A stretch of 64,000 nt of DNA from Chloroflexota bacterium. Its GTDB lineage: Bacteria > Chloroflexota > Anaerolineae > Anaerolineales > Anaerolineaceae. Of this stretch, positions 7,677 through 58,087 are shown one piece after another. Position 1 is the first letter of the stretch. Every line of letters begins with the position of its first letter. Both the position numbers and the translations under genes were made by a program. Where the stretch lies: assembly GCA_021825925.1 (NCBI GenBank), contig JAKAFP010000004.1, forward strand, positions 124,001-188,000. The letters run 5' to 3'. Under the pieces are notes generated by a model. That model had not been told where the DNA came from and did not search any database. It saw only the letters and a list, made by a program, of their open reading frames with translations.

Positions 7677-9464
7677 CTATTGGTCGTTGGGGTTTGTCGT
7701 TTTGATTAAAATGGTTGTACCTTTACCAAGAATGGAATTGATTTCCAATTCAGCATCAATAAGTTCCGCTCGTTCGGATAAACCTAACAAGCCAAAATGA
7801 CCTTTTTCAGGAAATTCGACAGGGTTTCCAGAAACCACGAATCCCTTGCCATCATCTCGGATCATGACGATAAGTCGATTATCTGAGAAATCAAGCTCTA
7901 CCCAGGCATGAGCTGCGTTGGCATGATGGATTACATTATTTAGAGATTCTTGAACCATGCGATAAACAGACATTTCACTTTTAGCATCGAGCCTGTGTTC
8001 CTGCCCCTTTGAACTAAAAGCAATTGGAAGATTTGATGATTGCTCCATTTCATGGACCAACATTTCCAAAGAAGCGACTAATCCCAAGTCTTCGAGATAA
8101 ATAGGCCTCAATCCACGGATCATACGCCGCAGGTTGGTCATCGTTTGTTGAACAAGGGTTTGAAGCTCGCTCATTGGTTCGCTTTGTGGTTTTGGTGTGT
8201 TCAATAAGGCTAACTGGATCCTCTGATTAAGAGCTATCAAAGCTTGAATGGTATCATCATGCAATTCACGAGCCAGACTTTTTCGTTCACTTTCTACTCC
8301 AGCAGTAATGGCGCCAATATAATTGTGCAATGTTTGTTGGGCGGTCTTCAACTTCTCTGCCATTTGTATTAATTCTGCCTGCAGGTTGCGAATCTCTTCA
8401 ATTCCGCCAACAGGTTGGTTTATGGAATCAAAATCGCCAGCCGCCAGGTTAGAAGCTTGTTTTTCCAATTTCTGTAAAGGTGTAACGATACGGCGGGCGC
8501 CAAACCAGATTGCCAACAAAGCCAAAAGAAAAACGGGGACTAAAATTAACGGCGCAGCCTGAGTGTTAACTAAATTGGGATTAGCAATATCCTCCCATGC
8601 CTCCTCAATAATCAATCCCCATCCAGTAATTTGAATTGGGCTAAAAGCTACGACATGTTCACCTTCACTGCTTTGAAAATAATTTATCCCGCTTTCACCG
8701 TTTAGAACTTCTTCTATCCCAGGATGAGCAGGCAGGCTCTCGTCGATCTTTATTGGACCACCATGGTAAAGGACATCGAACTTTCCTTTAGCACTAGAAG
8801 AACTTATTACCATCACTGTGGTTTGACCTGAATTGGAAAGTGACCCAATAGATTCCTCTATCATCCGCCCTGGTGAAAAAGCCCCTACCAGGATTTCTTT
8901 CTGGGCGGTGATTATACTGACAAAAATATATGCATTTGAATCTACACCCGAGTTGATCAGAGTCGAGAATTTTGGAGCCTCTGCCTTTTCACCAGATTCG
9001 AATGAAGCTGGAATTTGTTTTGGAAGGCTAATCCACTCTACTTTTGAAGAGGAAGAACGGATCAAGCTTCCATCACTCGTAAACAGGGCCAAGCCTCCGT
9101 CAAAAGTGGTTGCGATTTCATCTGGTGTCAATATCAGGGAATTAAAATCCGTTTTGCCTTCAAGATTTCGTGACAAAATCAGAATCGTACTGCCAACATG
9201 AGAAATTTCACGTTCCAAAGTGCTTGCTGCGGCCTGTACAGTTTTTAGGTCTCGATCCCCGACCAGGCTACGCATAGCTTCGTGATGGAGAGATTGACTG
9301 CCAAATGCAACAACAAGAACCAAGACGGTTAAGGGAAGGACGATAAATAAGAATAATTGTAGCGTGAACCCTCTTAAACCGGAGGGCCGCGCTTTGAGAG
9401 TTTTTTTATTCAAAGAAGGTTGGGGAGTTTTATTCAAGACATCCCTTTTTCCATAAAGAACCAA
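7677..9464 (-). CDS. NarL-type sensor histidine kinase (HisKA_3)
   Basis: This 595-residue membrane kinase has a TM helix at about 35-55, an extracytoplasmic sensor region of about 240 residues, a second TM near 304-322, a HAMP linker (about 320-375), a HisKA_3 dimerisation domain with the phosphorylated His402 in SLARELHDDTIQALI, and a HATPase domain with QESLNNVIHHANA and DDGKGFVV. This is the NarX/DegS/LiaS class, which pairs with LuxR-type regulators. It follows the regulator at 9490-10164 by 25 bases. The ATG at 9464 has no strong ribosome site; a TTG nine codons later (9437) follows AAAAGGGATGTC and could be the true start. The sensed signal is unknown; no haem or Fe-S motif is visible. 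Confidence 0.93.
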   Translation of the reverse strand: MVLYGKRDVLNKTPQPSLNKKTLKARPSGLRGFTLQLFLFIVLPLTVLVLVVAFGSQSLHHEAMRSLVGDRDLKTVQAAASTLEREISHVGSTILILSRNLEGKTDFNSLILTPDEIATTFDGGLALFTSDGSLIRSSSSKVEWISLPKQIPASFESGEKAEAPKFSTLINSGVDSNAYIFVSIITAQKEILVGAFSPGRMIEESIGSLSNSGQTTVMVISSSSAKGKFDVLYHGGPIKIDESLPAHPGIEEVLNGESGINYFQSSEGEHVVAFSPIQITGWGLIIEEAWEDIANPNLVNTQAAPLILVPVFLLALLAIWFGARRIVTPLQKLEKQASNLAAGDFDSINQPVGGIEEIRNLQAELIQMAEKLKTAQQTLHNYIGAITAGVESERKSLARELHDDTIQALIALNQRIQLALLNTPKPQSEPMSELQTLVQQTMTNLRRMIRGLRPIYLEDLGLVASLEMLVHEMEQSSNLPIAFSSKGQEHRLDAKSEMSVYRMVQESLNNVIHHANAAHAWVELDFSDNRLIVMIRDDGKGFVVSGNPVEFPEKGHFGLLGLSERAELIDAELEINSILGKGTTILIKTTNPNDQ

Positions 9465-9489
9465 ATAGATCCATCATGGAAAACAAATA

Positions 9490-10164
9490 CTATGAATTTT
9501 CAGCGATGTTTGCCGAAATAAGTCCCAGCGAAACAGCTTTCATCACTGCTTCAGTGCGGCTTTCGGCATTCATTTTCTGAAAGACATTTGCCAGATGGTT
9601 TTGTACAGTGCGGTCACTGATCGATAATTGGACGCCGATAGCCTTATTTGTAAAGCCCTTTGCAGTTAGGGTCAATATCTGAAGCTCCCGTTCAGTTAGC
9701 GCTTCAACCATGTTCGTTTCTGCTTTGCCAGAAAGTTTGGCGATCAGTTTTTGAGCAAGGGCAGCATCAAGCACGGATTTGCCGTGGAACACATCTTTAA
9801 CCGCATCAACAATCTCTTGAGGTTCAGCGGTTTTTAATACATACCCATTTGCTCCTGCCTGAAGGACGGCTTGAACAAATGGTTCGTCATCATAGGCTGT
9901 TAATACCAATATACCGATAGAAAAACGATTTGAGCGTATCCAACGGGTTACTTCAATCCCACTCATAATCGGCATCTGAATATCCAGAACAGCGACATCG
10001 GGTTTATTTTTTTCAAGCAACTCACAGGCTTCCTGACCATTGGAAGCTTCAGCGATTACCTGAATATCCGGGCTTTGCTCAAGAAACTGACGAATGCCAG
10101 CCCTCACGACCACATGATCATCGGCCAATAAAACACGAATAGTAGATTGAGATAGATTTGTCAT
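9490..10164 (-). CDS. NarL/FixJ-family response regulator
   Basis: This 224-residue regulator has a receiver domain (about 8-125; Asp pair in LLADDHVVV, phospho-Asp in VAVLDIQMP, Lys in YVLKTAEP) and a C-terminal LuxR HTH (about 155-215; LTERELQILTLTAKGFTNKAIG then SDRTVQNHLANVFQKM). It is cognate to the kinase just downstream and a close paralogue of the truncated regulator at 1-451. Family members bind 7-2-7 inverted heptamers. The window contains eight promoters with such an arrangement, so this protein and/or its paralogue is the prime candidate to bind them; that link is an inference. Confidence 0.95.
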   Translation of the reverse strand: MTNLSQSTIRVLLADDHVVVRAGIRQFLEQSPDIQVIAEASNGQEACELLEKNKPDVAVLDIQMPIMSGIEVTRWIRSNRFSIGILVLTAYDDEPFVQAVLQAGANGYVLKTAEPQEIVDAVKDVFHGKSVLDAALAQKLIAKLSGKAETNMVEALTERELQILTLTAKGFTNKAIGVQLSISDRTVQNHLANVFQKMNAESRTEAVMKAVSLGLISANIAENS

Positions 10165-10260
10165 TATTTGATAATTATACTCACAGAATGGATATTCACT
10201 AGAACTGTTCTTTTTTTCCTAATTGCACTGAAAGAAAAAACTCCTTGAGCAATTGTTTAC

Positions 10261-10647
10261 CTAAGGCATAACTTCAATGATCCCGCGCATTCTGGTGTGA
10301 TTCGGGCTGCACCAGCGGTTGCAGAAAAAGGTGTATTCACCAGGTTTATCAAAGGTGAGCGTCGTTTCAACGAATTCACCTGGTGTCACCTCTAGTGGAA
10401 TCATCTCATAGCCCCCGATTGCGAAACCGTGAACGACATCTTCACTGGTCATACGGATACGAATCGGAACCCCAACCCTGGTTTGGAGGGTATCCATTGA
10501 CCAGCCGCCATTTTCGAAAGTACGCGCATGGAGATCAATTTTGGTTCCCTGTTTACGACTGATCAGCCACCGTCCCACAAAGGGGATGGAAATAGCAATT
10601 AATATGAAAAAAACCACCAGCGAACGAGCAAGTATCTCTTTTTTCAT
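10261..10647 (-). CDS. CuA-type cupredoxin, membrane anchored (cytochrome oxidase subunit II-like)
   Basis: This 128-residue protein has one N-terminal helix (about 9-27) and a cupredoxin domain with a complete CuA ligand set: His73 in DVVHGF, and Cys109, Cys113, His117, Met120 in CNRWCSPNHTRM. It therefore probably carries a binuclear copper electron-transfer centre on the outer face of the membrane. The usual CuA Glu between the cysteines is Trp here. It is the last gene of the PCYCGC/cupredoxin/polyferredoxin operon, six bases after the polyferredoxin stop. No oxidase subunit I is nearby, so its partner is either the polyferredoxin or a distant reductase. Confidence 0.88.
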   Translation of the reverse strand: MKKEILARSLVVFFILIAISIPFVGRWLISRKQGTKIDLHARTFENGGWSMDTLQTRVGVPIRIRMTSEDVVHGFAIGGYEMIPLEVTPGEFVETTLTFDKPGEYTFFCNRWCSPNHTRMRGIIEVMP

Positions 10648-10653
10648 GATTTG

Positions 10654-11979
10654 TTATCCGATCAATAACCAGAGCATGCCAAGTGAGGTCATGGCTGAAA
10701 AAACAATTATGGGCAGCCCCTGTTTCAATGAACCTGAAATTTTCATGGCAACCCGGCTGGACCAAAAAAGTCCGATCCCTAAAACAATCACTTGCAAGAA
10801 CATACTGAAGAGTGTGGATTGTCCGACCCAGGGTTTTGCAACAGAGCCAAGCAATTTCCAGCCCCACCCAAACGGGTCAGAAACCACCGGTAAAACGTAT
10901 GAGAACTTGGCCAACGCAAAAGAAATCGTGAATGCAATCCAGGCTGTTAACCCCAATGGAACCAATACCTGACTTTGATGGGCAAGTGCCTTTCGCAGGC
11001 TCATTTTCTGCTCACCAAGTTTATTAGCAATCCAAACAGCTAACGTATATATCCCTGGAACAAGCATCAAGGCAATAACGAGGAATAATCCGGCAAAAAA
11101 GAACCACGATCCGGTGCCTATCGCATATGCGGCCATTTTAAGCTGCCCCCACGGGCCAAGAAAAATTGCCGAGTCGATTAATGCACTGGAGACCATGACC
11201 AATCCAAGAAATGCTTCGTCAAGAGAGTGTTTTGTTTCTGGTCCAAGATCACTCCCCCATGGACGCAGGTTCACAGCTAGGTTATCAGATGGGCAGACAC
11301 GCAGACATTCCATGCACAAACCGCAATTGGCGCTGGACTTCAATGCCAAGGGGTACACACCCCATGGGCAAGCTTCATAACAACTTTTTTGAGCATGCGT
11401 TGAGCAAATTTCCGGGTTCTTGACTCTCACTTCCACAGGGGCGGCTTGTGCATATAATCCAGTAAAGCCTCCAATTGGACAGAGGTAATTGCAGAAAGAC
11501 CTGCGTTCAAAAACCAGGGCAAGCATAAATGCCAGTAAAAGGATGACTAATAATACAATTGAAGTCACACTTGGTGAGGTTAATGTGATTGCACCAAAAA
11601 GACCCACCAGCATAAACCCACCTGCCTGTAACCACCGTCCACGCAGGAATTTGGGCCAACGTTTTCCAAGACCAAAATTTTTACCTCTGGGTTGAAGGAT
11701 TCCTCCATTTTGAATCCACTCACCCGGCATCGGGATGGGGCAAATACTGCACCAGGAGCGGCCTCCTAAGGGGATGAAGAATAATTTTAGAGCAGTCCAC
11801 CAGGCAATCCACACAAAGATGATCGCGAAATTATGACTGCCAACGACGGAACCCAATAAGCCAGCCAGAATCGTAAAGATAAACCCTGCCAAAGTAATGG
11901 CGCGAATTAAGAATTGCGGCCACCGATTTCTTATAAGAAAATTTGTCCATCTTGTACGGGTAAGATCCAGCCGGTTCAT
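10654..11979 (-). CDS. NapH/NosR-like membrane polyferredoxin
   Basis: This 441-residue protein has about ten membrane helices and cysteine motifs for iron-sulfur clusters. A short SWCSICPIPMPG near residue 77 and FCNYLCPIGG near 162 resemble the CxxxCP motifs of NosR/NapH/CcoG. These are followed by two ferredoxin-type motifs: ICSTHAQKSCYEACP and CGLCMECLRVCP (about 190-230). Such proteins pass electrons between the quinone pool and periplasmic copper or nitrogen-oxide enzymes. It overlaps the upstream cupredoxin gene by ATGA and is directly followed by the CuA protein, so a membrane electron-transfer complex of the three is likely. The exact acceptor is not evident. Confidence 0.85.
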   Translation of the reverse strand: MNRLDLTRTRWTNFLIRNRWPQFLIRAITLAGFIFTILAGLLGSVVGSHNFAIIFVWIAWWTALKLFFIPLGGRSWCSICPIPMPGEWIQNGGILQPRGKNFGLGKRWPKFLRGRWLQAGGFMLVGLFGAITLTSPSVTSIVLLVILLLAFMLALVFERRSFCNYLCPIGGFTGLYAQAAPVEVRVKNPEICSTHAQKSCYEACPWGVYPLALKSSANCGLCMECLRVCPSDNLAVNLRPWGSDLGPETKHSLDEAFLGLVMVSSALIDSAIFLGPWGQLKMAAYAIGTGSWFFFAGLFLVIALMLVPGIYTLAVWIANKLGEQKMSLRKALAHQSQVLVPLGLTAWIAFTISFALAKFSYVLPVVSDPFGWGWKLLGSVAKPWVGQSTLFSMFLQVIVLGIGLFWSSRVAMKISGSLKQGLPIIVFSAMTSLGMLWLLIG

Positions 11980-12491
11980 GAGGTTTTTCCTGTTTTTGAT
12001 TCTTTAGATTTCTTTAAAGAAAAAATAGCTGCCACAACAGCCAATATTCCAAGCAGCACCCCGCGGATAAACAACATGTTGGATCCCACCCGGAGTTTTC
12101 CGATCATGAAGGGATGTAGGTTACCGCAGGGAACAGAACAGCGAAAGCGAAACATGCCAGGCCTGGAAGCCACAAAAGTCCCTGTTACGGGCTGACCAGG
12201 ATCCGATGTAAGTTGAAAATCATACCCATCGATGGAGATTCCATGAACCACATCCGTGGAGACGAATTCGATTGTTACTCGGTCGCCCTGGTTGACCTTT
12301 ATTTCTGCAGGTGTGAACTGAAAACTGGTGGCGTCAATATGGATCACTCGATCTGTTGGCTTGGGAGTCGCCAATGGTATTGGTACAAAAAGGATCAATA
12401 AAGCACAAAGACTGATAAATACCATCAACCGCCATTTTGATTGTAGAGGTTGATGGTTTAGGTTTTCTTGAGTGGACAAGAGTTCCTCCAT
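11976..12491 (-). CDS. Membrane-anchored cupredoxin with CuA-like site
   Basis: This 171-residue protein has an N-terminal TM (about 22-40), a cupredoxin domain, and a second TM near 135-158 with a Lys/Ser-rich tail, which is unusual for a subunit II-like protein. Ligands are His83 in DVVHGISI, and Cys118, Cys122, His126 and Met129 in CSVPCGNLHPFM. It is a second, distinct copy of the CuA-type fold found in 10261-10647. It starts on the last base of the PCYCGC gene stop (TAATG) and overlaps the polyferredoxin start. A role as electron-carrying partner of the polyferredoxin is inferred. Confidence 0.87.
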   Translation of the reverse strand: MEELLSTQENLNHQPLQSKWRLMVFISLCALLILFVPIPLATPKPTDRVIHIDATSFQFTPAEIKVNQGDRVTIEFVSTDVVHGISIDGYDFQLTSDPGQPVTGTFVASRPGMFRFRCSVPCGNLHPFMIGKLRVGSNMLFIRGVLLGILAVVAAIFSLKKSKESKTGKTS

Positions 12492-12970
12492 TATTTTACC
12501 GGCGGCATATTGGATTTTCCGTATTGTGAATAAGTTGCATCTATCGTTGCACGAATTTCTGCGGGTGTTTTTCCTTCTTTGGTCATCTTTTGGGTATCTT
12601 CATTTATCTGAACGCACAAGTAGCAATAAAGGGCGTGAGGATCATTGACCACTTCACCTGAAGATTTGACTTCTTTTACGTAGCACGAGTAATTGGATGT
12701 GTGACCCACTGCACCGCATCCACAATAGCAGGGCACATTTTTCAAGGCATCCGGGTTTGTGATGGCAAATTGATATGCCGCCTGGACGTTCGCCGGGGCC
12801 TTGAGAATCTCTGCTTGAACATCAATAGGCGGCAGTGCTTTAGTGGGTTCCTTGATGGACGCTGCCGGCGTACTGCTGCAAGCTGCCAAAAAAACAGCCA
12901 GCGGAATGATTACTGAAATTAAGAATATCCATCGTTTTCGAGATTTATTCCCGACTGAAATTTTTTCCAT
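12491..12970 (-). CDS. PCYCGC-motif lipoprotein
   Basis: This 159-residue lipoprotein has a signal peptide ending FLAAC (Cys31) and the family-defining PCYCGCG motif near residue 80, followed by SNYSCYV and LYCYLCV, giving a Cys-rich domain. The family (PF13798) has no established function; the Cys pattern suggests metal or Fe-S binding. It is the first gene of an operon with two CuA-like cupredoxins and a polyferredoxin, so a role in copper delivery or redox maturation is plausible but unproven. Transcription starts from the best-matching copy of the shared operator, at 13065-13080. Confidence 0.88.
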   Translation of the reverse strand: MEKISVGNKSRKRWIFLISVIIPLAVFLAACSSTPAASIKEPTKALPPIDVQAEILKAPANVQAAYQFAITNPDALKNVPCYCGCGAVGHTSNYSCYVKEVKSSGEVVNDPHALYCYLCVQINEDTQKMTKEGKTPAEIRATIDATYSQYGKSNMPPVK

Positions 12971-54322: not shown

Positions 54323-54661
54323 CCAGTGTAAATTCCAATTTATTCAATAAACCAATAAGAACCATCGTTTGAACGCCAGCTCCCCACCGGACTGGCGATT
54401 TTGTTCATCAGGGTTGTTAACAAAAGAGTCAAATAAGACTTAAGTCATAGTATTTGGATTCTTCATGGTTTACCATCCCAATATCAATCAACATCGTGTT
54501 ATGGAACGCCAACAAAAACGCCATATTGTTCAAAAAAAAACTGAGGTGTTGGATTCCATTGATTCAATATACTGCAGCTCGTGTTTGCAAAGAGGAGGCC
54601 AAAATACCATTTATCTGCGTCGCAAATTGATGTTTATTTCATAACGATTATGGAGGTTCAA
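54323..54661 (+). other. Intergenic region ahead of the oxidase operon
   Basis: No gene is seen. CGCCAG (54374-54379) and CTGGCG (54392-54397) form a terminator-like hairpin followed by ATTTTGTTC for the upstream cyclase. The palindrome GACTTAAGTC at 54437-54446 could be a regulator site for the oxidase operon; I cannot name the regulator. Confidence 0.4.
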
Positions 54662-54766
54662 ATGCATTTCACGGACAACTTATGGTGGATCTATCTCACC
54701 CTGGTTATCTTAATCGCCATTTTCTTCCTGGTTTTTTCAATTCTGATCAAGGATAGAGGAAAATAA
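54662..54766 (+). CDS. 34-residue single-helix subunit of the oxidase operon
   Basis: MHFTDNLWWIYLTLVILIAI starts a 34-residue protein with one TM helix (about 8-29) and a charged tail. ATG is chosen for a GGAGG seven bases upstream. The gene precedes subunit II by one base. It resembles small accessory subunits of haem-copper oxidases, such as CcoQ-like proteins. Too short for firm homology. Confidence 0.7.
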   Translation: MHFTDNLWWIYLTLVILIAIFFLVFSILIKDRGK

Positions 54767-54767
54767 A

Positions 54768-55184
54768 ATGGAAAAATCAGAGCGTAACTGGCTGTTCATT
54801 CTCATTGCTATTTTTGTCATCGTCAATGTGGTCACTCTTTCCAACCTGGTTCCATGGCAAAGTTGGCAGCTATGGCAAAAAGTAACCCCTGCCAAAGTGG
54901 TGAACGTAGAATACAAAGATTATGTCATTTCCATGGATACCCCAGTTGAGATCAAGAAGGGCGAATATGTGCAATTTGCGGCGACGTCCGCTGATGTGAC
55001 CTATGGTTTTGGGGTCTTTCGTAAAGACAACAGCATGGTTTTCCAAATGCAGGTGCTTCCTGGCAGAACCAACACGATCATTTGGAAATTCGACGAAACC
55101 GGAACGTATGACGTACGTTCGACAGAATACTCCGGCCCCAAGCATTCCGGCATGGTTGTCCGGGACGCAATCGAAGTGAAATAA
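54768..55184 (+). CDS. Haem-copper oxidase subunit II without CuA ligands
   Basis: This 138-residue protein has one TM (about 9-28) and a cupredoxin domain. The CuA site is lost: the first His is Tyr79 (DVTYGFGV), and the motif usually C-x-E-x-C-x3-H-x2-M reads S118-T-E-Y-S122-G-P-K-H126-S-G-M129, with both cysteines replaced by Ser, while Glu120, His126 and Met129 remain. It precedes subunit I by 12 bases. Such subunits are found in the NO-reductase-like branches. Electrons must therefore enter by another route. Confidence 0.85.
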   Translation: MEKSERNWLFILIAIFVIVNVVTLSNLVPWQSWQLWQKVTPAKVVNVEYKDYVISMDTPVEIKKGEYVQFAATSADVTYGFGVFRKDNSMVFQMQVLPGRTNTIIWKFDETGTYDVRSTEYSGPKHSGMVVRDAIEVK

Positions 55185-55196
55185 GGAGGATGCCAC

Positions 55197-56825
55197 ATGA
55201 AAAAACTTGGCTGGATTGAAAAATGGACATTACGTTTTACGGTGGTGGCGCTGCTCTTTATGCTGCTATCTGGATTTGAAGGCATGTTAATGCGTTCGCA
55301 GCAGTATGACATCAATTCGCTGCATGGCATGGAAACCGTACTCAACAGCATCCGACCTGGTGGCACAAATCCAAGTACTGAAGACCTTTATTACGCAATG
55401 CTGACCGCCCACCCCATCGTAGGCATCTACGGTTTCGTCTACATGGCGATTTTCGGCGCATTTTATTTTTTGGTCCCTTATTTGGTAAAGAAACCTGTCA
55501 AACACCCCAAACTGGTGGTGGCCAATTTCTGGCTGCAGATCATCGGGGTGATGACCTGTTGGGCAGCAGGTTTCTTTGGACTGTTCAATGCACTCTATAC
55601 CCTCTATTGGCCGCTGCCGGTTGCCTTTGACCGCGTGCCTGTGATCGGTAGCATTGCTTTCATGCTGGGGGCAGCCGTTATTATGGTCAATATTTTGATC
55701 TTCTCTTACAACATTTTTAAAACAGTATTGAGCAAGGATCATAATGGTTCTTATACGGTAGGCCAATTCCTGAGAGCAGCTTTTGGCATCCCTCGATTAA
55801 TGAAGCTTTTCGGCAAAGAAGATAAAGGTGCAGTCAATCTTGACTATAATGGCATGCCTGTATTTATCGTGGCCGTGGCTAGAGGATCCATTGACACGGT
55901 GATCAATGCGGTCGTGCTGCTATCCGCGGGTGTGCTGATCCTGGTGTATGGCGTGTTTGCGCTGTTGGGGCATCCGCTCAACCCGGGCGCGGTGGACGCG
56001 CTGATCTATAAAAATATTTATTGGTGGGGGTTGGATATGGTCGCGGATGGCAACGCCCTGATCTACACCGCAGGAGTCTGGTACTTACTGGTGCCCCTTC
56101 TCACCGGAAGACAGCTGTTTGGTGCAAACGTGGTTAAGACCGTTATCATGGTGGACTTGCTCGTCTCAATGGGCGTCTGGAGTCATCACTTGTTGGGCGA
56201 TACCGCACAACCCATTTGGATGAGATTGTTCTCAGGCCAGTTGATCACCTGGGGCGAGATCTTCACCATGGGGCTGACGCTCTTTGCCACGCTGATGACG
56301 ATCTGGAAAGCACGCCCCGTAAAGATGTCACCTCCGTTGAAATTTACGCTCGGCTCAATGTTCGGCTTCATCATGGGCGCCATCGCCGGGATTTTTCAGG
56401 CGAACGTGGGTTTGAATGTGGTGCTTCACAACACCCAATGGGTGATCGGATTGCACGCCCACACCCTGCTATTAACCGGTGTCGGCACCATGCTCTTCTC
56501 GGTGATCTATACGCTGGTGCCCATGCTCACTAAGCTTGAATTCAAGTTCAAAAAACTTGTAGACTGGCATTTCTGGTTGTGGATGATCGGCTCGGTTGGA
56601 ATGGCTCTGGCCATGGGTATGGCTGGCTCCAAGGGTATGCTTAGGCGCACGCTTTACACTGGAGGAGAGTTTACTCCTTACACTCTGGCCGCCATCATTT
56701 TCGGAAGCATTCTTTCAATCGGGTTTATCGTCTTCCTGTTCAACCTGGTGAGCACCCTCGGATTGAAGAATGTTTTCTCCCTGATCATTCCAGATAAGAA
56801 ACAGGCTGCGGTTGATGCTGCATAA
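55197..56825 (+). CDS. Haem-copper oxidase subunit I with Asp at a CuB ligand (gNOR-like)
   Basis: This 542-residue membrane protein has about 13 helices. His72 (TAHPIVG) and His422 (LHAHTLLLTG) would bind the low-spin haem, and His420 the active-site haem. The CuB His pair is present, His330-His331 (GVWSHHLLGD). The third ligand, normally in helix VI (H of WVVHLWVEG in NorB), is Asp280 in WWGLDMVADG, and the NorB Glu is Asp284. An Asp/His/His metal site with loss of CuA in subunit II matches the gNOR type of nitric oxide reductase reported in sulfur-oxidising and other bacteria. Activity is inferred. A terminator follows. Confidence 0.88.
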   Translation: MKKLGWIEKWTLRFTVVALLFMLLSGFEGMLMRSQQYDINSLHGMETVLNSIRPGGTNPSTEDLYYAMLTAHPIVGIYGFVYMAIFGAFYFLVPYLVKKPVKHPKLVVANFWLQIIGVMTCWAAGFFGLFNALYTLYWPLPVAFDRVPVIGSIAFMLGAAVIMVNILIFSYNIFKTVLSKDHNGSYTVGQFLRAAFGIPRLMKLFGKEDKGAVNLDYNGMPVFIVAVARGSIDTVINAVVLLSAGVLILVYGVFALLGHPLNPGAVDALIYKNIYWWGLDMVADGNALIYTAGVWYLLVPLLTGRQLFGANVVKTVIMVDLLVSMGVWSHHLLGDTAQPIWMRLFSGQLITWGEIFTMGLTLFATLMTIWKARPVKMSPPLKFTLGSMFGFIMGAIAGIFQANVGLNVVLHNTQWVIGLHAHTLLLTGVGTMLFSVIYTLVPMLTKLEFKFKKLVDWHFWLWMIGSVGMALAMGMAGSKGMLRRTLYTGGEFTPYTLAAIIFGSILSIGFIVFLFNLVSTLGLKNVFSLIIPDKKQAAVDAA

Positions 56826-57120: not shown

Positions 57121-57786
57121 ATGTCAGTAAACCTTGAAACCATAAAAGATCATCCCCTTTTTTCTTCATTAAAGACCGAAACCCTTGAAGATCTAGCCAG
57201 GGCTGCACTGCTTAAGGATTTTTCTACAAACACGATCTTTCAGATGCAAGATGAACCTTGTGAATTTGTGGGATTCGTAAGGACTGGAACTGCTGTCATT
57301 TTTCGAATTTCATCAAATGGAAATGAACAAATAATTTCTGTCCTCACCCTAGGAATGCATTTTAATACGGTACCAGCGATGGATAGCGACAAGAACGTGC
57401 GAGCGTGCATCAAGGCGATATCACCCTTGTCACTTCTGCTCATTCCGGTTGAAGATTTTCGCTGCCTTTTGCAGACTCACGCCGACCTGGCTTATTTGAT
57501 CCTTACGGATTTTGCCAGGCGACTTGATCATCTCGTCACGTTGGTTGATGAACTATCCTTGCATTCAGTCAGAGGACGACTGGCACAATTCTTACTGAAC
57601 CAGGCAAAAAAGGACCCATCGTCCAAACCTTGGACACAAGATGAAATAGCAGCCCATTTAGGTACCGTTCGTGATGTGGTCGGCCGAACACTGCGTGCTT
57701 TCATTAAAGCCGGTTTGGTCGAACGGAAAAATGGGGCAATTGTTATCTTGGATCGTAAAGGTTTGGAAGAAGAAGCCAATCTTTAA
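57121..57786 (+). CDS. Crp/Fnr-family transcriptional regulator
   Basis: This 221-residue protein has a cyclic-nucleotide-type beta-barrel (about 10-125) without the FNR Cys cluster, and a C-terminal HTH (about 145-215) with WTQDEIAAHLGTVRDVVGRTLRAFIKAGLVER. The absence of Fe-S cysteines and the neighbouring reductase suggest the DNR/NnrR type that senses NO through haem, although no haem ligand can be assigned. It is likely to regulate the oxidase operon upstream. Confidence 0.9.
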   Translation: MSVNLETIKDHPLFSSLKTETLEDLARAALLKDFSTNTIFQMQDEPCEFVGFVRTGTAVIFRISSNGNEQIISVLTLGMHFNTVPAMDSDKNVRACIKAISPLSLLLIPVEDFRCLLQTHADLAYLILTDFARRLDHLVTLVDELSLHSVRGRLAQFLLNQAKKDPSSKPWTQDEIAAHLGTVRDVVGRTLRAFIKAGLVERKNGAIVILDRKGLEEEANL

Positions 57787-57856
57787 AAATGAGACAAAAA
57801 GCGTATTATTATTTCAACCCTTTCGCTAGAATCAATCATGTGAAAGGAAGTCGTTG

Positions 57857-58087
57857 ATGAATCGTGGAAAAGAATTATTGATTAAGATCAACTTATCGCT
57901 ATGTGTCCATTGCGGCGCATGTGCTTACTTATGTTCAACAGGCACGCTCATCATCAGCGACGCCGAGCCCGTCGTTGATCAACCTGATCAATGCTCAAAC
58001 TGCGGAGCTTGTGAAGAAATATGTCCCACCGGGGCGATTAGTCTACCTTTTGTCATTACATGGCAGCCGACAACACTAATTGAATGA
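57857..58087 (+). CDS. 2[4Fe-4S] ferredoxin
   Basis: This 76-residue protein has two clusters: CVHCGACAYLC and CSNCGACEEICP. ATG at 57857 follows AAAGGA. It lies 70 bases downstream of the regulator and may carry electrons for the reductase or for other reactions. Confidence 0.92.
   Translation: MNRGKELLIKINLSLCVHCGACAYLCSTGTLIISDAEPVVDQPDQCSNCGACEEICPTGAISLPFVITWQPTTLIE

Follow-up and report, generated by a model that had tools for sequence, protein, structure and literature searches.

A conserved haem-copper reductase of Chloroflexota and Thermoproteota with aspartate at the helix VI histidine position: a candidate NO reductase

Three adjacent genes at 54662-56825 of the window (the whole stretch of 64,000 nucleotides that was analysed) encode a haem-copper oxidoreductase (HCO) in which an aspartate takes the place of the metal-binding histidine of helix VI and in which subunit II has lost CuA. 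The genes, their residues, the conservation of these residues, the clade to which they belong and the linkage of the genes are established. It is reasonably probable that the genes encode a membrane-bound haem-copper NO reductase that is CuA-less, probably quinol-fed, equipped with a haem b3-FeB site on two His and one or two Asp and used mainly for NO removal. More tentatively, at somewhat short of even chances, we propose an unrecognised NO reductase family, spread over Chloroflexota and two groups of Thermoproteota, with a metal site of two His and one Asp, a second Asp at the Tyr position, a CuA-less subunit II and quinol as the donor, which would be the only HCO that these strict anaerobes possess. 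The original observation is confirmed and its interpretation partly supported: the enzyme is a variant of NO-reductase kind, conserved across two domains of life, whose ligand set is unusual.

If NO is the substrate, the enzymes would form a new N2O-forming or NO-detoxifying class in anaerobic Chloroflexota and archaea, and their carriers would have to be added to genome-based counts of N2O-forming potential. Standard annotation calls such enzymes cytochrome c oxidase or misses them. The natural exchange of His for Asp at an otherwise invariant position of helix VI would also offer a direct test of the ligand set and metal that suit NO as opposed to O2 chemistry.

Gene layout and the smaller subunits

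The genome that contains the window (Chloroflexota) has a size of about 3.4 Mb and is 84% complete. The operon lies on the + strand and consists of an open reading frame (ORF) of 34 amino acids (54662..54766), the gene for subunit II (54768..55184, 138 amino acids) and the gene for subunit I (55197..56825, 542 amino acids), all within the interval given in the original prediction. It is followed on the same strand by the gene for a Crp/Fnr-family regulator devoid of the Fnr-type Cys cluster (57121..57786; PF13545 and PF00027) and by that for a 2[4Fe-4S] ferredoxin (57854..58087; PF00037); the Pfam matches bear out the regulator and the ferredoxin that had been predicted there.

The 34-residue protein had been described as a preceding one-helix subunit, and this description holds. 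Its length of 34 codons is kept in the bacterial homologues having enough upstream DNA, whereas in one archaeal group the protein is encoded by a separate ORF of 35-40 amino acids and in the other it is joined to the N-terminus of subunit II as a fusion; on these grounds it is a genuine subunit. Searches with the small subunit against PDB and PHROGs yielded no significant match. A comparable small subunit, IIa, is encoded in the same order in Thermus ba3 oxidase, and we take the position of the 34-residue protein to resemble that of subunit IIa of the ba3 oxidases.

Subunit II comprises one transmembrane helix and a cupredoxin domain without CuA. It scored slightly over the cut-off of the COX2 profile (PF00116) and under that of the CoxB profile (TIGR02866). 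The residues read in the region of interest are S118, E120, S122, H126 and M129. Upon alignment with the CuA domains of Thermus ba3, S118 and S122 fall on both Cys positions, in agreement with the predicted replacement of the CuA cysteines by serine, and Tyr79 falls on the first CuA His. Regarding the CuA ligand set (two Cys, two His, Glu, Met), none of the subunit II homologues read has it in full, both Cys being replaced by Ser and the first His by Tyr; H126 and M129 remain. The motif RSTEYSGP is invariant in 18 subunit II sequences, and STEYSGP is also present in the second archaeal group. Because the motif is kept in the subunits read, the loss of CuA is probably ancestral to the clade and the altered loop constrained. 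With CuA lost, subunit II would serve as a structural cupredoxin only.

The metal site of subunit I

Subunit I belongs to the haem-copper oxidoreductase superfamily: it matches the COX1 profile (PF00115) with 210 bits and has the conserved His residues. Solved HCO subunits I match its fold at Z 34-38. An AF2 model, structure prediction of the metal site having been suggested as a check, reached a pLDDT of 77 and a pTM of 0.81 overall, but a pLDDT of only about 55-66 in the block around the active site; because of this low confidence, which weakens the case for an NO reductase, the model was left out of the argument on site geometry.

All codons given below are on the + strand, and all residues they encode are invariant. 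His72 (55410..55412, helix II) is the expected low-spin haem ligand, and His420-x-His422 (56454..56462, helix X), preceded by one extra residue relative to other families, provides the expected high-spin and low-spin haem ligands. His330-His331 (56184..56189, helix VII) align with the HH pair of all HCO families and are expected metal ligands. Glu354 (56256..56258, helix VIII) corresponds to the conserved NorB Glu in both the multiple alignment and the profile-profile alignment, where it is aligned to Glu267 of Ruegeria NorB.

Helix VI sets the protein apart. In the sampled A-, B- and C-family oxidases, sNOR, cNOR and qNOR, this helix reads aromatic-x3-His-x3-(Tyr/Asn/Glu), the C-family deviating at the last position. 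Here it reads W276-x3-D280-x3-D284 with no gap against the other families, that is, W-x3-D as opposed to W-x3-H elsewhere. Asp280 (56034..56036) thus occupies the place of the metal-ligand His of helix VI and Asp284 (56046..56048) that of the oxidase Tyr or NorB Glu, both as originally proposed. Both residues are invariant in 28 subunit I sequences (51-94% identity) and in the second archaeal group. The register is defined by the gap-free W-x3-[H/D]-x3 pattern, the profile-profile alignment alone being ambiguous by a few residues; whatever the register, no His of that helix is available as a ligand. Helix VI and its surroundings are free of His in 39 of 40 family members; the lone exception has a His in the loop, 12 residues ahead of the WW pair. 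Invariant across both domains are H72, D280, D284, H330, H331, D335, E354, H411, H420 and H422. Invariance in 28 sequences of subunit I and 18 of subunit II, at 51-94% identity, argues that D280, D284 and STEYSGP are not a product of chance.

The c- and q-type NO reductases have haem b3 and a non-haem iron on three His and a Glu; they are devoid of the cross-linked Tyr, and acidic residues near their site are needed. We infer the identity of the metal, the haem type, the electron donor, the regulation and NO as substrate as parts of the NO-reductase reading. A low-spin haem b would be held by H72 and H422 of subunit I, and a high-spin haem b3 on H420 would face a non-haem metal with H330, H331 and Asp280 as ligands and Asp284 adjacent. 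Such a set of two His and a carboxylate would suit iron (FeB) better than copper. E354, matching the NorB Glu in position, may help to deliver protons or hold the metal, and the predicted reaction is 2 NO -> N2O + water. The NO-reductase reading draws support from the two Asp and Glu354, which mimic the His-Glu and Glu of NorB, and from the lack of the oxidase Tyr and of the helix VI His throughout the clade. As neither CuA nor a cytochrome subunit is present, the electron donor would most likely be quinol; a route via ferredoxin is conceivable but less likely.

The HCO fold would also suit an enzyme of anaerobes that reduces or scavenges O2 at an altered active site and protects from O2 rather than from NO. 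The active-site Tyr and the three CuB His of the A- and B-family oxygen reductases are, however, not found in subunit I, which has Asp284 and no helix VI His; with neither an equivalent of the cross-linked Tyr nor a third His, with acidic ligands like those of NO reductases and with CuA missing, a role in O2 reduction appears unlikely.

Distribution, phylogeny and genomic context

A species-level scan of 84,980 genomes (one per species) with the motif [YF]WWGLDM and an N-terminal motif, a search that misses WWGLDL members, yielded 29 loci with 48-94% identity. The hosts are Anaerolineae, Thermoflexia, a MAG labelled Dehalococcoides and MAGs of Crenarchaeota/Thermoproteota, including Candidatus Hecatella orcuttiae. 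Hits were thus confined to Chloroflexota and Thermoproteota, with none in Campylobacterota, Aquificota or Methylomirabilota among sequences with [YF]WWGLDM, WWGLDL members escaping the motif. The nearest relatives that carry the operon belong to Anaerolineaceae and to other Chloroflexi MAGs. When 398 Thermoproteota genomes were searched with a profile, 14 carriers emerged, the second archaeal group among them; 13 scored 600-791 bits and the remaining one was split on two contigs (310 and 281 bits), whereas every other HCO in these genomes scored less than 100 bits. Carriers amounted to two of 400 sampled Chloroflexota genomes and to six of 16 genomes within the genus. In total, the clade comprises about 40 homologues from Chloroflexota and two Thermoproteota groups, and D280, D284, HH330-331 and E354 are kept. 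The Anaerolineae MAG RSWS7 has a copy of subunit I on each of two contigs (L048 and L057), the copy at L057 being truncated at the contig end; this may reflect duplication or mixed strains.

A first tree, which included cNOR and ccoN, placed the clade beside cNOR on branches of about four changes per site. This placement was treated as possible long-branch attraction, and the tree was rebuilt without cNOR and ccoN. The rebuilt tree showed a single clade (100/100), which was joined with sNOR and an archaeal H-x3-E family (93/91) outside the sampled A and B families. AU tests did not reject joining the clade to the A family (p 0.058), the B family (p 0.13), Sox-type enzymes (p 0.17) or sNOR (p 0.25). 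A position inside the oxygen reductases had been named as the finding that would speak against the original prediction; the best trees do not show it, but the AU values for A and B leave it statistically admissible. Relative to the oxygen reductases, the clade falls outside the A and B sequences sampled and next to sNOR, its deep placement being not statistically significant. A stretch following the HH pair, [QM]P...GQ..[ST][WY], is common to the clade, sNOR and the archaeal H-x3-E family and was not found in A, B or C oxidases. The grouping at 93/91 and this shared stretch support the NO-reductase reading.

In the genome studied here (84% complete), subunit I is the only PF00115 gene found. 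Of six other carriers tested, four resemble this genome in having an enzyme of the clade as their only clear HCO; of the remaining two, one carries it as two matches on one contig and one has a single weak extra match. Haem A synthase is absent in all Chloroflexota carriers tested and in 17 of 24 carriers overall, so b-type haems are expected; its absence from most carriers also argues against an O2 reductase, as does the cytochrome bd already present in all six congeners. Cytochrome bd was not found in several carriers, G247, G451, G454 and G455 among them, which would suit an O2 reductase.

Full-length NosZ is encoded in four of 14 archaeal carriers as compared with four of 384 other Thermoproteota (Fisher p 6e-5, uncorrected for kinship), and in three of the four NosZ-bearing carriers the other HCOs are only of the oxidase type. 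This excess of NosZ, together with the status of the enzyme as the only clear HCO in most carriers tested, supports a function in NO reduction. No nirK above the cut-off was present in the 28 genomes checked, and NosZ was not found in the genome studied here. These negative results yield no gene for an NO source and speak against an NO reductase; they also make NO removal likelier than denitrification, and NO removal would most likely be the role of the enzyme in this anaerobe. The scarcity of NO source genes among the carriers would also fit another small molecule (nitrite, hydroxylamine, a sulfur oxyanion or peroxide) as the substrate, or a sensor protein, and to our knowledge the ligand set has no known biochemistry. 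The protein nevertheless retains haem ligands and buried acidic residues as in a turnover enzyme, and NO is indicated by the co-occurrence with NosZ and by the Glu resembling that of NorB; another substrate or a sensory role is thus quite improbable.

Another unusual HCO family, with AHNLMEAMG (His-x3-Glu) in helix VI, was observed in three Thermoproteota genomes (G554, G572 and G673; loci L144, L150 and L151). Its helix X motif AHLMT (H-x-M) suggests Met as a ligand of the low-spin haem, and two of the three genomes also encode NosZ.

The sequence AAGACTTAAGTCATA (54435..54449, + strand), about 213 bp upstream of the first gene, is a candidate operator that includes the 10-bp palindrome GACTTAAGTC. 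The exact 15 bases occur once in the whole genome; within the window the element, matched on both strands, occurs at this site only. The palindrome forms a conserved block before the operon in this genome and in two congeners (G001 and G010), in both of which the Crp-ferredoxin pair also adjoins the operon; G013 keeps the pair beside the operon too, but in a different order. A consistent match to a general Fnr/DNR site (TTG...CAA) was not found upstream of the operon. The regulator gave a full-length match to the NO sensor DNR of Pseudomonas, among many Crp proteins. The regulator, with the ferredoxin adjacent to it, probably controls the operon.

Genes for hemerythrin or DUF438-hemerythrin proteins are close to several copies of the clade. 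These neighbours and the linkage of operon and Crp-ferredoxin pair despite reordering support the NO-reductase reading, but hemerythrins can bind O2 too. Near the HCO genes of one archaeal group lie genes for a Fur-type regulator and a ferritin-like protein; they would also suit defence against O2 or peroxide, which favours O2 reduction and counts against NO.

Further neighbouring genes were recorded. An HTH_10 regulator with the motif SCTSC[KR], possibly a dedicated metal or redox sensor, adjoins the archaeal operons (upstream in L110, L114 and L115, downstream in L108 and L109). Three loci encode, 1.7-5.2 kb downstream from the HCO, a membrane protein with GHLH and GHWH motifs for which Pfam and PDB gave no match (L033, 11201-12676, 491 amino acids; related ORFs in L043 and L046). 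At 7677-12970 of the window, on the - strand, genes for a sensor kinase and a LuxR-type regulator neighbour those for a membrane protein with 4Fe-4S motifs of the Fer4_5 kind, a protein bearing the PCYCGC motif and two cupredoxins of CuA type in which C-x3-C..H..M is intact. In G001 and G010, too, comparable CuA-type matches are clustered; in this genome without NosZ, the region may represent a separate electron-transfer module.

Comparison with known haem-copper families

The original prediction pointed to a gNOR-type NO reductase. Its more general part, chemistry of the NO-reductase type, is supported by the lack of an active-site Tyr, the acidic residues at the metal, the NorB-type Glu and the tree position beside sNOR and outside the A and B families sampled. 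The gNOR described from Sulfurimonas, Persephonella and Ca. Methylomirabilis has Asp as the active-site residue (PMC8756737, Table A4), and Asp284, as well as Asp280, agrees with this; gNOR is further described as a two-subunit enzyme related to the B family, and PMC8756737 gives it a cupredoxin subunit II, as found here. The NO reductase activity of gNOR has itself been proposed on sequence grounds. The clade may therefore be the already named gNOR in new hosts, which would be compatible with a function as NO reductase. We regard this identity as possible but doubtful: the hosts differ, and the three phyla missing from the 84,980-genome scan speak against it, weakly, given the WWGLDL members that the motif passes over. 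As the comparison was with the published description of gNOR, the clade is not filed under that name; it may be gNOR or a separate family.

Regarding sNOR (NorY/NorS; e.g., Ruegeria pomeroyi SPO_RS20755 and Thermomicrobium), the gene for a cupredoxin subunit II likewise precedes that for subunit I, the helix VII-VIII stretch HHL..D...P...GQ..S[YW] is shared and the tree groups both; about a quarter of the residues are identical. However, in sNOR the helix VI His is retained, Asn occupies the Tyr position and Glu354 has no equivalent, whereas the clade has Asp280 and Asp284 at the first two of these positions. The cNOR and qNOR enzymes (NorB) share the acidic residue at the Tyr position and the helix VIII Glu (Glu267 in Ruegeria numbering), but NorB has three His, NorC is a cytochrome c and qNOR is a fused single chain of more than 700 amino acids. 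Among the residues typical of cNOR and qNOR (His207, Glu211, Glu215 and a Glu280-type residue), only the carboxylate at position 284 and Glu354 have counterparts here, and a cupredoxin subunit II is found in place of NorC or a fused cytochrome domain. An assignment of the clade to sNOR, cNOR or qNOR was ruled out, as the defining residues differ.

The ba3-type (B-family) oxygen reductases share the cupredoxin subunit II and the haem His set, but they have three His, Tyr and CuA, and the clade falls outside them in the best trees. The bo3 and aa3-600 quinol oxidases share a CuA-less cupredoxin subunit II and a helix I resembling GF....MR.QQ; they belong to the A family and have the helix VI His and Tyr, and their known quinol-site residues are only partly matched in the clade.
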